Origin: Lysobacter silvisoli
GTDB lineage: Bacteria; Pseudomonadota; Gammaproteobacteria; Xanthomonadales; Xanthomonadaceae
Reading direction: 5' to 3'
Assembly (NCBI RefSeq): GCF_003382365.1
Contig: NZ_QTSU01000001.1
Coordinates: forward strand, 1,736,001-1,800,000
Length of the DNA: 64,000 bases
Part shown: piece after piece, positions 23,698 through 44,694 of the stretch
How the letters are laid out: each line of letters opens with the position of its first letter
Numbering within the stretch: the first letter of the stretch is position 1
Notes under the pieces: generated by a model
Databases searched by the model: none
What the model saw: the letters and a program-made list of their open reading frames with translations, nothing else
Told to the model about the DNA's origin: nothing
Made by a program: the position numbers and the translations under genes

Positions 23698-23735
23698 CAA
23701 CAGCAACAGCAACAACAACAACAACAGCACCACCC
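23698..23735 (+). repeat. CAA/CAG triplet tract before pstC
   Basis: About a dozen consecutive CAA or CAG triplets, starting directly at the end of the family B element and ending 32 bases before the pstC start. A 21-base block at its left end (23693-23713) recurs inverted beside another repeat at 44820-44840. Confidence 0.7.
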
Positions 23736-40247: not shown

Positions 40248-41933
40248 TCATGCCAGCGCGGCGTGGTGCACACCGGCGATCGCGCGGCCCGAGGGATCGG
40301 CCATCTGCGCGAAGGCCGCGTCCCAGGCGATCGCCGCCGGCGAGGAGCAGGCGATGGACTTGCCGCCCGGCACCGTCTCGGCGCAGGCCGTGCCCGGGAA
40401 CTGGCGTTCGAAAATGCTGCGGTAGTAATAGGCTTCCTTGCTCTGCGGCGTATTGATCGGGAAGCGGCTGGCGGCTGCGGCGAATTCGCGGTCGCTGACA
40501 TGGGCTTCCGCGTGCGCCTTGAGCCCGTCGATCCAGCCGTAGCCGACGCCGTCGCTGAACTGCTCCTTCTGCCGCCACAGGATCGACTCCGGCAGGTAAC
40601 CCTCGAAGGCCTCGCGCAGCACCGCCTTCTCGATCCGACCGCCGGCCTTGTCGACCATCTTGGCCTGCGCGTCCATGCGCATGGCCACCTCCAGGAATTC
40701 CACGTCCAGGAACGGCACCCGCGGCTCCACGCCCCAGGCCATCATCGACTTGTTCGCGCGCAGGCAGTCGTAGCTGTGCAGGGCGTCGAGCTTGCGCACC
40801 AGCTCCTCGTGGAACTCGCGCGCGTTGGGCGCTTTGTGGAAGTACAGATAGCCGCCGAAGATCTCGTCGCTGCCTTCGCCGGAGAGCACCATCTTCACGC
40901 CCATGGCCTTGATCCGCCGCGCCAGCAGGAACATCGGCGTGGACGCGCGAATGGTGGTCACGTCGTAGGTCTCGATGTGCTGGATCACGTCCGGCAGCAC
41001 GTCCAGGCCTTCCTCGAAGGTGTAGGTGAAACCGTGGTGCACCGTGCCCAGCGCCTGTGCCGCCACTTCGGCCGCGGCCAGATCGGGCGAGCCCTGCAGG
41101 CCGATGGCGAAGGAATGCAGGCGCGGCCACCAGGCCTCGGCCTGGTCGTCCTCCTCGATGCGGCGACGGGCGAAGCGCGCGGCGCAGGCCGCCACCAGCG
41201 AGGAGTCCAGGCCGCCGGAGAGCAGCACGCCGTAGGGCACGTCGCTCATCATCTGCCGGTGCACGGCGCGCTCGAAGGCGCTGCGCAGTTCCTCCTTGCT
41301 CACCTGCACGCCCTGCACCGCCTCGTAGCCGCGCCAGCCGGGCTGGTAGTACTTCACCGGCACGCCCACGTCGCTGTCGTAGTAGTGCCCGGGCGGGAAC
41401 GCGGCCACGTCGTCGCACAGCCGCGCCAGCACCTTCATTTCCGAGGCCACCCACAGGCGGCCGTCGGCATCGTGGCCCCAGTACAGCGGGCACACGCCGA
41501 TGGGGTCGCGCGCGATCACGTAGCGCCCGCGCGCGGCGTCCCACAGGGCGAAGGCGAAGATGCCGTTGAGGCGGTTGAGCAGCGCGCCCAGATCGCCGCC
41601 CTCGCGGTACAGCGCGTTGATGACCTCGCAGTCGGACTTGGTCTGGAAGTCGTAGGGCGCGGCCAGCTGCTGCTCCAGCTCGCGGTGGTTGTAGATCTCG
41701 CCGTTGACCGCCAGGGCCAGCTCGCCGTCGGCTGAACGCAGCGGCTGCGAGCCGCCGGTAGGATCGACGATGGCCAGGCGCTCGTGCACCAGCAGCGCGC
41801 GCGGGTCGACGCTGACGCCGGACCAATCGGGGCCGCGGTGACGCTGCCGCGCCGACAGGGACAGGGCCAGCGGCCTGAGCGGTCTCAGGTCGGCGCCGGG
41901 GCGGAGGTCGAACAGGCCGAGGATCGAGCACAT
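40248..41933 (-). CDS. asnB: asparagine synthetase B (glutamine-hydrolysing)
   Basis: 561 residues. The N-terminal glutaminase domain begins MCSILG with catalytic Cys2, followed by RHRGPDWSG and NGEIYNH. The synthetase domain has the PP-loop VLLSGGLDSSL at about 233-243 and SGEGSDEIFGGY. It makes Asn from Asp, Gln and ATP. Unlike the usual short leader, there are 275 bases between the leader-peptide start and this gene, holding an Asn-rich leader peptide and a terminator, which points to control by attenuation. In the Xanthomonadaceae I recall asnB lying close to dapE, as here. Confidence 0.96.
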   Translation of the reverse strand: MCSILGLFDLRPGADLRPLRPLALSLSARQRHRGPDWSGVSVDPRALLVHERLAIVDPTGGSQPLRSADGELALAVNGEIYNHRELEQQLAAPYDFQTKSDCEVINALYREGGDLGALLNRLNGIFAFALWDAARGRYVIARDPIGVCPLYWGHDADGRLWVASEMKVLARLCDDVAAFPPGHYYDSDVGVPVKYYQPGWRGYEAVQGVQVSKEELRSAFERAVHRQMMSDVPYGVLLSGGLDSSLVAACAARFARRRIEEDDQAEAWWPRLHSFAIGLQGSPDLAAAEVAAQALGTVHHGFTYTFEEGLDVLPDVIQHIETYDVTTIRASTPMFLLARRIKAMGVKMVLSGEGSDEIFGGYLYFHKAPNAREFHEELVRKLDALHSYDCLRANKSMMAWGVEPRVPFLDVEFLEVAMRMDAQAKMVDKAGGRIEKAVLREAFEGYLPESILWRQKEQFSDGVGYGWIDGLKAHAEAHVSDREFAAAASRFPINTPQSKEAYYYRSIFERQFPGTACAETVPGGKSIACSSPAAIAWDAAFAQMADPSGRAIAGVHHAALA

Positions 41934-41970
41934 AACGGAAATCTCCAGTGGGGCTGCTTTTCTTTAAGTC

Positions 41971-41990
41971 CCCGGCCATGGATGGCCGGG
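41971..41990 (-). promoter_or_regulatory. hairpin in the asnB 5' leader, after the attenuator
   Basis: CCCGGCCAT-GG-ATGGCCGGG is a near-perfect palindrome 38 bases before the asnB start and downstream of the attenuator terminator. It could add translational control or protect the read-through mRNA. Confidence 0.4.
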
Positions 41991-42033
41991 CTCTTGTTCA
42001 AGGACGAACGACAAAATCCAGGACCTAGAAACG

Positions 42034-42060
42034 AAAAAGCCCGCGCTTTTCGGCGCGGGC
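42034..42060 (-). terminator. attenuator terminator of the asnB leader
   Basis: On the minus strand GCCCGCGC pairs with GCGCGGGC over a CGAAAA loop, then five T residues. It lies 32 bases after the leader-peptide stop and about 100 bases before asnB, so it would end transcription before asnB. The 5' arm can instead pair for seven bases (GCCCGCG with CGCGGGC) with 42102-42108 inside the leader peptide gene, the antiterminator. Confidence 0.8.
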
Positions 42061-42091
42061 TTCTTGAGCGATTGAGCGTGTGTTGCGCGCG

Positions 42092-42208
42092 CTAATCGCC
42101 GGCCCGCGGGAGGCTGGCGTTATTGCGATTGTTATTGTTCGCCGCGGCCACGGCCGTGCCGCCGCCGGGGGCGGTGACGATCTGGGCGGTGACGAAAACG
42201 CGGCTCAT
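42092..42208 (-). CDS. Asn-rich leader peptide of asnB
   Basis: 38 residues, starting MSRVFVTAQIVTAPGGG. At residues 24-30 it reads NNNNRNN: codons AAC AAT AAC AAT CGC AAT AAC (42139-42119). It ends ASLPRAGD. AGGA lies nine bases before the ATG. Tandem codons for the product of the downstream gene, followed by a terminator, are the signature of a transcription-attenuation leader as in his, thr, leu and trp operons. Low charged-tRNA-Asn would stall ribosomes over the Asn codons and favour the antiterminator. I do not recall a described Asn attenuator. Confidence 0.8.
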   Translation of the reverse strand: MSRVFVTAQIVTAPGGGTAVAAANNNNRNNASLPRAGD

Positions 42209-42336
42209 GGCTCGATCCTGCTTCAGGCCGGGACGGTTTGCAAGCGGGGGCGGCGGCGGCCGGCCCCTGTCACTTTGGAAACGCGCCCCCCGGCACGCCC
42301 CGGCCATGGGCTAAGCTGCGCCGCGGAGGGGAGCTC

Positions 42337-44694
42337 ATGCGTCGATGGATCAAGCGCGGCCTGGCCGCGGTGCTGGTACTGGCTCTGATTGCGGCGGCGG
42401 GCGCCTGGTGGCTGTTGCGCGCCAGCCTGCCCAGCCTGGAAGGCGAACTGGCGTTGGCGGGTTTGTCGGCACCGGTCGCGGTGCAGCGCGACGCCCAAGG
42501 CGTGGTCACCGTGGACGCGGCCAACGAGGCCGACGCGATGCGCGCGCTGGGCTACGTGCACGCGCAGGAGCGCTATTTCGAAATGGACCTGCTGCGGCGC
42601 ACCGCCGCCGGCGAGCTGTCGGCGCTGTTCGGGCCGGTCGCGGTCGAGGTGGACCAGCGCCGGCGCATGCACCGGCTGCGCGCGCGCACCGAACAGCACC
42701 TGGACGGTTTTGCCGGCGAGCAGCGCGCGCTGCTGCAGGCCTACACCGACGGCGTCAACGACGGCCTGGACGCGCTGGGCGCGAAACCCTGGCCCTATCT
42801 GCTGCTGGGCACGCAGCCGCAACGCTGGCAGCTGGCCGACTCGGCCCTGGTCGGCTTCGCCATGTACTTCGATCTGCAGGACGGCGACAACGCGCGCGAA
42901 CGCGCGCTGTGGACGCTGCGCGGGGCCACGCCGACGGCGCTGTACGCCCTGCTCACCCACGATGGCAGCAGTTGGGACGCGCCGCTGTTCGGCACCGCCC
43001 GCGGCGACGCGCAGCTGCCCGACGCCGCCACCCTGGACCTGCGCTCGCTGCCGGCGCCCAGCGCCGACGCGCCGGTGCGGGTGCCGTACCGCAACGAGGT
43101 CGGCAGCAACAACTTCGCCGTGGCCGGCAGCCACACCCGCGACGGCCGCGCCATCGTCGCCGACGACATGCACCTGGGCCTGCGTGCGCCCAACCTGTGG
43201 TTCCGCGCGCGCCTGCGCTACGCCGATGCGCGCGCGCCCGAGGGCCGCGTGGACGCCAGCGGCTTCACCCTGCCCGGCCTGCCTGCGCTGGTGGTGGGCA
43301 GCAACGGCCACGTGGCCTGGGGCTTCACCAACAGCTACGGCGACTGGCTGGACTGGAAGCTGGAACCCGGCTGCGCCGGCGACGCGCCCAAGGCCTGCGC
43401 GGGCCTGCGCACCTACGAGGAACGCATCGAGATCAAGGGCGAGCCCGCGCGCGTGTTGCGCGTGCGCGAGACCGCCTGGGGACCGCTGATGCGCGACAAC
43501 GCCGACGGCAGCGCGCTGTCGCTGCGCTGGTCCGCGCACCTGCCCGGCGCGCTGAACCTGGAGCTGGCGCGGCTGATGCGCGCCGGATCGCTGGATCAGG
43601 CGCTGAGCGACGCGCAGCGCATCGCCTTGCCGGTGCAGAACCTGCTGGTCGCCGACCGCAGCGGCCGCATCGCCTGGCGCCTGCTGGGGCCGATACCGGA
43701 ACGCGCGGCGGGCTGCACGCCGGCCGTGCCGATGGCCGCCGACGCGGCCTGCCCGCCCTGGGGCCTGCGCACCGACCGCGCGCCGCAATTGGTCGACCCG
43801 CCCAACGGCCGCCTGTGGACCGCGAACTCGCGCACGCTGCAAGGCCCGGAGCTCGCGCGCATCGGCGACGGCGGCCTGGTGCTGGGCGCGCGCGCGCAAC
43901 AGATCCGCGACGACCTGCTGAGCAAACAGCGTTTCGACGAACGCGACCTGCTGCGGGTGCAGCTGGACGACCGCGCGATCTTCCTGGCCCGCTGGTGGAA
44001 GCTGCTGCGCGAGCAGGCCGCAAGCGCCAAGGATTCGCCGACGCTGAAGGAACTGGCCGCGGCATCGGCGCAGTGGGAAGGCCGCGCGGTGCCGGAATCG
44101 GTGAGCTACCGCTTGGTGCGGGCCTGGCGCCTGGCCGTGCACGACCGCCTGATCGACGGCCTGACCGCACCGGCGCGCGCGAAGCTGGGGGCGGATTTCG
44201 AGCTGCCGGAACTGGCGCAGTTCGAAGGCGTGGCCTGGCCGCTGGTAACCGAACGGCCGATGCATCTGTTGCCGCGTCGCTACGCCTCCTGGGACGCGCT
44301 GTTCGAGGATGCGGCGCGCCAGGTGCGCGACGATCTGGCCCAGCAAGGGCCGCTGGCGCAGCGGCGCTGGGGCGAGCGCAACACCGCGGCGATCTGCCAT
44401 CCGATTTCGCGCGCCCTGCCCGGCTTCGCCAAGCCCGCGCTGTGCATGCCCGCCGACGAGCTGCCGGGCGACGTGGCCATGCCGCGCGTGCAGCGCCAGG
44501 ATTTCGGCGCGTCCGAGCGCATGGTGGTGTCGCCGGGGCGCGAGGCGCAGGGCTACATCCACATGCCGGGCGGCCAGGCGGGGCATCCGCTGTCGCCGTA
44601 TTGGGGCGCGGGCCACGACGACTGGGTACAAGGCCGGCCGACGCCGTTTTTGCCGGGCGAGACGAAGTACCGGATGACGTTGAAGCCGCGGTGA
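42337..44694 (+). CDS. penicillin acylase family (Ntn) amidase
   Basis: 785 residues, a penicillin amidase (S45) type precursor. A single N-terminal hydrophobic helix (about 9-27) serves as signal or anchor. The autocatalytic cleavage site with nucleophile Ser257 reads RNEVGSNNFAVAG. Before it lies the alpha-chain region (HAQERYFEMDLLRRTAAGEL). Members hydrolyse beta-lactam side chains, or acyl-homoserine lactones (quorum quenching); the substrate here is unknown. The ATG at 42337 follows GGGGAG. It is divergent from the asnB leader. Confidence 0.9.
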   Translation: MRRWIKRGLAAVLVLALIAAAGAWWLLRASLPSLEGELALAGLSAPVAVQRDAQGVVTVDAANEADAMRALGYVHAQERYFEMDLLRRTAAGELSALFGPVAVEVDQRRRMHRLRARTEQHLDGFAGEQRALLQAYTDGVNDGLDALGAKPWPYLLLGTQPQRWQLADSALVGFAMYFDLQDGDNARERALWTLRGATPTALYALLTHDGSSWDAPLFGTARGDAQLPDAATLDLRSLPAPSADAPVRVPYRNEVGSNNFAVAGSHTRDGRAIVADDMHLGLRAPNLWFRARLRYADARAPEGRVDASGFTLPGLPALVVGSNGHVAWGFTNSYGDWLDWKLEPGCAGDAPKACAGLRTYEERIEIKGEPARVLRVRETAWGPLMRDNADGSALSLRWSAHLPGALNLELARLMRAGSLDQALSDAQRIALPVQNLLVADRSGRIAWRLLGPIPERAAGCTPAVPMAADAACPPWGLRTDRAPQLVDPPNGRLWTANSRTLQGPELARIGDGGLVLGARAQQIRDDLLSKQRFDERDLLRVQLDDRAIFLARWWKLLREQAASAKDSPTLKELAAASAQWEGRAVPESVSYRLVRAWRLAVHDRLIDGLTAPARAKLGADFELPELAQFEGVAWPLVTERPMHLLPRRYASWDALFEDAARQVRDDLAQQGPLAQRRWGERNTAAICHPISRALPGFAKPALCMPADELPGDVAMPRVQRQDFGASERMVVSPGREAQGYIHMPGGQAGHPLSPYWGAGHDDWVQGRPTPFLPGETKYRMTLKPR

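Follow-up and report, generated by a model that had tools for sequence, protein, structure and literature searches.

Attenuators of the thr, leu, ilv, his, trp and phe systems of proteobacteria share a layout in which codons for the product amino acid are combined with alternative antiterminator and terminator helices and with a biosynthetic gene downstream. In Firmicutes, T-box riboswitches for tRNA-Asn bind the tRNA directly and have no leader ORF. Leaderless attenuation is on record in Sinorhizobium meliloti where the 5' end of the trpL attenuator RNA is the ATG of its leader ORF, and this RNA, rnTrpL, is reported to act in trans as well (PMC7298713). Literature searches directed at an attenuator for asparagine or asnB, at attenuation in Xanthomonas, and at leaderless leaders and maps of transcription starts gave no title or beginning of an abstract that names an Asn attenuator; neither 'asn' nor 'asparagin' occurs in the available portion of the main text of PMC2965389. 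Here we describe a leader ahead of asnB that is very probably a ribosome-mediated transcription attenuator, sensing the charging of Asn-tRNA and controlling asnB.

The DNA analysed (the window) is a stretch of 64,000 nt from Lysobacter silvisoli (assembly GCF_003382365.1, contig NZ_QTSU01000001.1, positions 1,736,001-1,800,000 of the forward strand). The gene asnB lies at 40248-41933 on the minus strand; its product, glutamine-hydrolysing asparagine synthase B, matches NF006949 with 845.7 bits (cut-off 499, E 1.4e-254), and it is taken here as the controlled gene. An earlier note on this DNA had pointed to a leader ORF of 38 codons starting 275 nt ahead of asnB, to six Asn codons in seven within it, and to a hairpin with a U5 tract before asnB, and each of these was confirmed. 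The ORF, MSRVFVTAQIVTAPGGGTAVAAANNNNRNNASLPRAGD, for which translation is probably leaderless, runs from 42208 to 42092 (-) and closes with the stop codon TAG (42092-42094, -); the putative sensor codons, AAC AAT AAC AAT CGC AAT AAC, lie at 42139-42119 (-). The hairpin with its tract spans 42060-42034 (-): its stem and loop, GCCCGCGC-CGAAAA-GCGCGGGC, occupy 42060-42039 (-), with the 5' arm GCCCGCGC at 42053-42060 (-; segment 3), the 3' arm GCGCGGGC at 42039-42046 (-; segment 4) and the U5 tract at 42034-42038 (-). An Asn-codon leader followed by a hairpin is really present ahead of asnB, and the gene 3' of the leader makes the amino acid of its sensor codons. Within the last leader codons, CGCGGGC (42102-42108, -; segment 2) is able to form 7 base pairs with the terminator's 5' arm, the antiterminator that the earlier note had proposed.

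Across the six frames of the window, a stretch with six Asn in seven codons occurs only in this leader and in a simple repeat near 23700 (+). The latter (23700-23729, +) is a CAA/CAG repeat giving an Asn run in one frame, with flanks that we named by eye as pstS-like and pstC-like. A mechanical terminator scan of the window did not have the attenuator hairpin among its calls. A separate palindromic hairpin of 8 pairs, CCCGGCCATGGATGGCCGGG, is located at 41971-41990, between the attenuator and asnB, and was classed by the scan as terminator-like on the plus strand.

A hairpin of this kind could be the ordinary terminator of an upstream unit, next to which the Asn-rich ORF would be incidental, and in several genera (for example L024, L027 and L043) the sequence before the promoter reads, by eye, as the end of a co-directional gene, which we take to be dapE. 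In the window, however, the long ORF on the other side of the leader (42238-44694, +; its sole NCBIfam match, an acylase, is far under the cut-off) is divergent, so that the terminator serves no upstream gene there. Moreover, the Asn codons, a covarying antiterminator arm and a promoter-like box that separates the leader from any upstream gene are all conserved, which argues against an upstream terminator and makes this explanation, in our judgement, highly unlikely.

Homologues of asnB were taken from 60 whole genomes (30 loci and 15 upstream stretches) and from the best 80 loci of named species. In each of the 20 genomes searched from the genus of the window, asnB is preceded by an ORF with 6 or more Asn per 10 codons. 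Among the best 80 loci, an upstream ORF with at least 3 Asn per 10 codons was present in 40 of the 43 numbered L031-L073, four of which (L031, L032, L034 and L040) repeat loci of the 60-genome set. The remaining three of the 43, titled Holophagales, Deltaproteobacteria and Rhodococcus (L041, L054 and L065), have an asnB of 73-83% identity with the leader absent, and may reflect transfer without the control region or mislabelled contigs. Leader-bearing loci are titled Lysobacter, Xanthomonas, Stenotrophomonas, Pseudoxanthomonas, Thermomonas, Luteimonas, Arenimonas, Dyella, Rhodanobacter and Fulvimonas; by taxonomy, Lysobacter belongs to Lysobacteraceae, and Rhodanobacter and Dyella to Rhodanobacteraceae, within the order Lysobacterales. 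Among genomes of this order with a full-length asnB, the leader was found in four genomes of two further families (G036, G047 and G056; G055) and was absent from eight genomes of five other families; the more distant asnB genes of the order (L119-L126, eight in all) had no upstream ORF with at least 4 Asn per 10 codons.

The leader set comprised 71 Asn-rich leaders (70 from L001-L073, plus L089), all with the hairpin, of which 65 are distinct; alignment A1 holds 56 of these 65, eight seeming near-duplicates and the outlier L089 being omitted. We applied a covariance model, R1, with the terminator as its sole structure, to 119 genomes from the family of the window, and assigned matches to asnB when they lay on the same strand and at most 600 nt upstream. 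At E <= 1e-100, asnB was present in 106 of the 119 genomes and, among the matches listed, R1 matched upstream of it in 89 of the 106. The family holds two kinds of asnB. Genes with at least 70% identity to that of the window nearly always have the leader (R1 match in 89 of 92, among the matches listed, with a 90th found by eye), and genes with 63-65% identity are without it (0 of 14, among the matches listed; read directly, the upstream stretches of all 14, L118 and L201-L213, show at most 2 Asn per 10 codons). As for the misses, the leader of G431 lies 410 nt from a contig end and its asnB begins another contig, G441 has a divergent leader, MSFYFNRNNNNSIDLPRADGLMLRTEM, and hairpin, recognised by eye (23.7 bits), and in G022 the leader is absent upstream of asnB. 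The gap between the R1 match's end and asnB has a median of 53 nt (range 18-356, 89 genomes), leaving little room in many genomes for an asnB promoter past the hairpin, but in the window it measures 100 nt. The earlier note had set conservation in relatives as a test of its reading, and the Asn codons and the hairpin turned out to be kept far beyond chance, with the reservation that all conservation and covariation counts given here are of sequences and not of independent events.

The 13 family genomes without asnB gave no strong R1 match (best E 6.1e-6, in G475, over model positions 74-125 only). Thirteen listed R1 matches lay elsewhere than before asnB; of the nine read, five are leaders of an ilv type, one is a second leader copy on a short contig (G437), one is the leader of G431, and the others are plain terminators. 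At the level of the class, R1 matched in 208 of 369 genomes at E <= 0.01, and only the 4 genomes of the window's family fell below 1e-19; the next-best matches that were read, G405 and G295, look like ordinary gene-end terminators with no Asn-rich leader. Likewise, three secondary matches in the window's own genome (L214-L216, of 20 listed) resemble gene-end terminators. Among the other 37 of the best 80 asnB loci (L074-L110), an ORF with at least 4 Asn per 10 codons was seen in four (L084, L089, L107 and L108), followed by a terminator in L084 and L089. L084 was rejected as a leader, since its reading frame continues unbroken to the limit of the sequence examined and it is probably the tail of a gene. 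In L089, on a contig titled Rubrivirga, an asnB of 64% identity follows an ORF containing NLTNANRN and a strong terminator; the locus scores 15.9 bits and may be of separate origin or a binning error.

Both helices were then judged by covariation. For the antiterminator we used columns 76-83 with 138-145 of A1, eight pairs chosen after viewing twelve, the outer four of which pair poorly. In these eight, 81.7% of cells are paired and 32 are changed on both sides, with a covariation score of 0.160 against 0.086 +/- 0.009 in shuffled alignments, a value reached by 0 of 500 shuffles; when the partner was slid by 1-3 columns, at most 42.6% of cells paired. The terminator has 95.0% of cells paired and 67 changed on both sides, with a score of 0.345 against 0.173 shuffled (again reached by 0 of 500). 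Two of the five covariation measures stay within the shuffle range for antiterminator and terminator alike. One is the count of pairs that have changed on both sides (antiterminator 4 against 3.1 shuffled, reached by 64 of 500; terminator 4 against 4.0, reached by 497 of 500), the other the count of pair types (antiterminator 10 against 9.6, reached by 301 of 500; terminator count reached by 338 of 500). The weak outer pairs of the antiterminator in A1 are 76/145, unpaired in 20 of 56 leaders, 82/139, unpaired in 12, and 83/138, unpaired in 34.

A larger set of 100 full-length rows (the 56 of A1, 4 others and 40 newly fetched as model matches, with seven partial antisense matches excluded and at least one repeat, L035 and L242 being the same contig) gave a similar picture. 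The antiterminator is paired in 81.0% of cells, with 56 changes on both sides against 27.9 shuffled, and the paired share, the both-side cells and the score were each reached by 0 of 1000 shuffles; its weak outer pairs are formed in 40, 53 and 76 of the 100 rows. The middle position, read as leader/5' arm/3' arm, is G/C/G in 89 rows, A/U/G in 7 and A/U/A in 4, so that both helices are kept in 100 of 100 rows, including 11 in which it has changed; these 11 come from seven numbered genera (g4, g6, g9, g307, g309, g313 and g322) and the named locus L033. Judged by this covariation, the antiterminator shares an arm with the terminator and both helices are kept.

When the 15 nt that begin at the first Asn codon are hidden, as under a stalled ribosome, and the 3' arm is not yet made, the 5' arm pairs with the leader ORF over 5 nt or more in all 65 leaders; with letter-shuffled leaders the share is 52%. 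The duplex energy of the antiterminator in single sequences, a weaker test than this fold, is moderate against dinucleotide shuffles (median z -1.71, with p <= 0.05 in 31 of 63). Folded by itself to minimum energy (-80.8 kcal/mol, z -2.49 against shuffles), the window leader has the terminator formed, as expected from thermodynamics without a ribosome.

The earlier note had gone further and proposed a protector, a CCGCGG/CCGCGG pairing of the leader arm with sequence before the Asn codons, completing a 1:2, 2:3, 3:4 logic. The last two pairings of that scheme covary, and CCGCGG is indeed found upstream of the Asn codons in the window leader, but the first pairing is not conserved: only 5 of 55 leaders reach a shuffle p <= 0.05 (mean z -0.31). 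In this test the arm was placed uniformly at 24 to 6 nt ahead of the stop, a poorer fit for leaders with a later stop. Leaders are 21-44 codons long (median 39), and the core of the antiterminator arm, found in 55 of 65, begins 13 nt ahead of the stop codon in 40 of the 55 and 7 to 25 nt ahead of it in the others, at a median of 11 nt (1 to 26) past the last Asn codon. Given the ribosomal footprint, a ribosome at the stop codon would cover the arm and one at an early Asn codon would not. Since the protector is not conserved, the off-state is better explained by a stop-codon ribosome covering the antiterminator arm, and such a ribosome can do the work of a protector. For the same reason we file the element under the wider attenuator kind rather than under the strict classical scheme.

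That strict scheme would call for a protector hairpin and for a 5' untranslated region with a Shine-Dalgarno site. In its favour, the window has the CCGCGG/CCGCGG pair and, together with its close relatives, an AGGA 7 nt before the ATG; however, the 1:2 pairing is not conserved, and AGGA is part of a predicted -10 element and is not kept in other clades, while TTGC at 35-37 nt is kept, and we hold the strict form to be improbable. The predicted -35 box, TTGCAA (42238-42243, -), stands 35 nt 5' of the leader ATG, and the predicted -10-like hexamer, CAGGAT (42215-42220, -), follows 17 nt past it and 6 nt 5' of the ATG. A box TTGC 35-37 nt before an in-frame leader ATG or GTG was found in 63 of 65 leaders (all but L073 and L089, with two fitting places in L062), whereas shuffles give 0.99 of 65 on average; this count was made after the box had been seen in alignments, and it also admitted spacings of 33 and 34 nt, neither of which was ever the first fit. 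Among 40 further loci, one of which (L242) is truncated at a contig end, the spacing recurred in 33, with at least L232 possibly spurious; all 33 show TTGC even though TTGA was allowed too. By alignment, CAGGAT is kept in most of 14 aligned Lysobacter-group leaders, TAGGGT or TACGGT stands at the same place in the Xanthomonas and Stenotrophomonas group, and in many leaders the hexamer ends 6-7 nt before the start codon. A scan of the window with an E. coli-type consensus called no promoter, at CAGGAT or elsewhere. The spacing of the TTGC box puts the probable start of the leader transcript on the leader start codon or beside it, a feature absent from the earlier note, and its mRNA is probably leaderless.

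Codon choice in the leaders differs from that in the gene that follows. AAU makes up 187 of 391 Asn codons in 64 leaders (about 48%) and 88 of 202 in 33 further leaders, against 74 of 562 (13%) in the first 1650 nt of asnB at 65 loci. Both Asn codons are read by one tRNA, and AAU, the rarer codon, may be favoured in leaders for slower decoding or for weaker RNA structure. In 58 of the 60 relatives, and in the window's genome among these, an asparaginyl-tRNA synthetase (AsnRS) scored above cut-off; with AsnRS encoded, asparagine can be loaded directly, and free asparagine can set the charging of tRNA-Asn.

The leader ORF might instead encode a functional Asn-rich peptide, with RNA structure secondary, and the peptide end (ASLPRAGD or RARPMRVCD) is well kept within clades. 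These kept ends, however, coincide with the RNA arm, the peptide changes between clades while the pairing stays, and conservation is poor ahead of the Asn codons in an ORF of variable length; a functional peptide thus appears very improbable to us.

The preferred reading, an attenuator sensing Asn-tRNA, would work as follows. From the promoter spacing, RNA polymerase would begin on the A of the leader ATG or beside it, and a ribosome would translate the leader as a leaderless mRNA. With ample Asn-tRNA, the ribosome would pass the Asn codons, reach the stop and, in the position expected there, cover segment 2; segments 3 and 4, a pairing supported by covariation, would then pair, and transcription would end after about 175 nt. 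With Asn-tRNA short, the ribosome would be expected to stall at the Asn codons and leave segment 2 free to pair with segment 3 once this is made, a pairing that the covariation of these arms supports, in which case no terminator would form and asnB would be transcribed. The comparative evidence for an Asn-specific attenuator before asnB is strong, the earlier reading as an Asn-responsive attenuator of asnB is supported by it, and we infer from it that asnB is regulated by asparagine. Beyond this, we lean towards an Asn attenuator class that is old in Lysobacteraceae/Xanthomonadaceae and Rhodanobacteraceae, leaderless and protector-free, and switched by the place of the ribosome alone (Asn codons or stop), whose RNA of about 175 nt could also act in trans.

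If the attenuator reading is true, asparagine would join the amino acids whose synthesis is regulated through ribosomes that stall within a leader ORF. The clade concerned takes in Lysobacter, Xanthomonas and Stenotrophomonas, and the model is a precise, testable one made of a predicted promoter, sensor codons and two covarying helices. Were the element also leaderless and protector-free, it would be a minimal attenuator with the ribosome as its only switch, a layout common to an ilv-type leader of the same bacteria. That leader was picked up by the same model in five genomes of the window's family (L185-L187, L189 and L195; upstream parts L217-L221). Its ORFs end like LVLVLITSPTGAGRTGV, with a near-stop arm TGCGGGAC and a hairpin such as CCCCGCACTGAGAAGTGCGGGG followed by T6. 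It has Leu, Val and Ile codons where the element described here has Asn codons, and the name 'ilv' rests on these codons. In five of five cases TTGACA stands 36 or 37 nt before the leader ATG, from which the ilv-type leader of this family is probably leaderless as well.

At the Asn leader itself no Rfam family reaches its cut-off; a weak likeness was seen to Thr_leader (RF00506, 27.3 bits, cut-off 55) and Leu_leader (RF00512, 26.5 bits, cut-off 50). No T-box match reached cut-off in the window, nor was one among the weak Rfam matches; a T-box riboswitch resembles the proposed attenuator in sensing the charging of tRNA-Asn and differs from it by binding the tRNA directly. The S. meliloti trpL attenuator is leaderless (PMC7298713), a property predicted for the Asn leader too. 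It differs in its Trp codons, in having trpE(G) downstream and in belonging to a rhizobium. Finally, like the thr, leu, ilv, his, trp and phe attenuators, the Asn leader has clustered codons, alternative helices and a biosynthetic gene downstream, and it departs from them in pairing Asn codons with asnB, in having no conserved protector and in being, by prediction, leaderless. The kind of control is a known one; what is new or unusual about this case is its amino acid, a start that is probably leaderless and the absence of a conserved protector.
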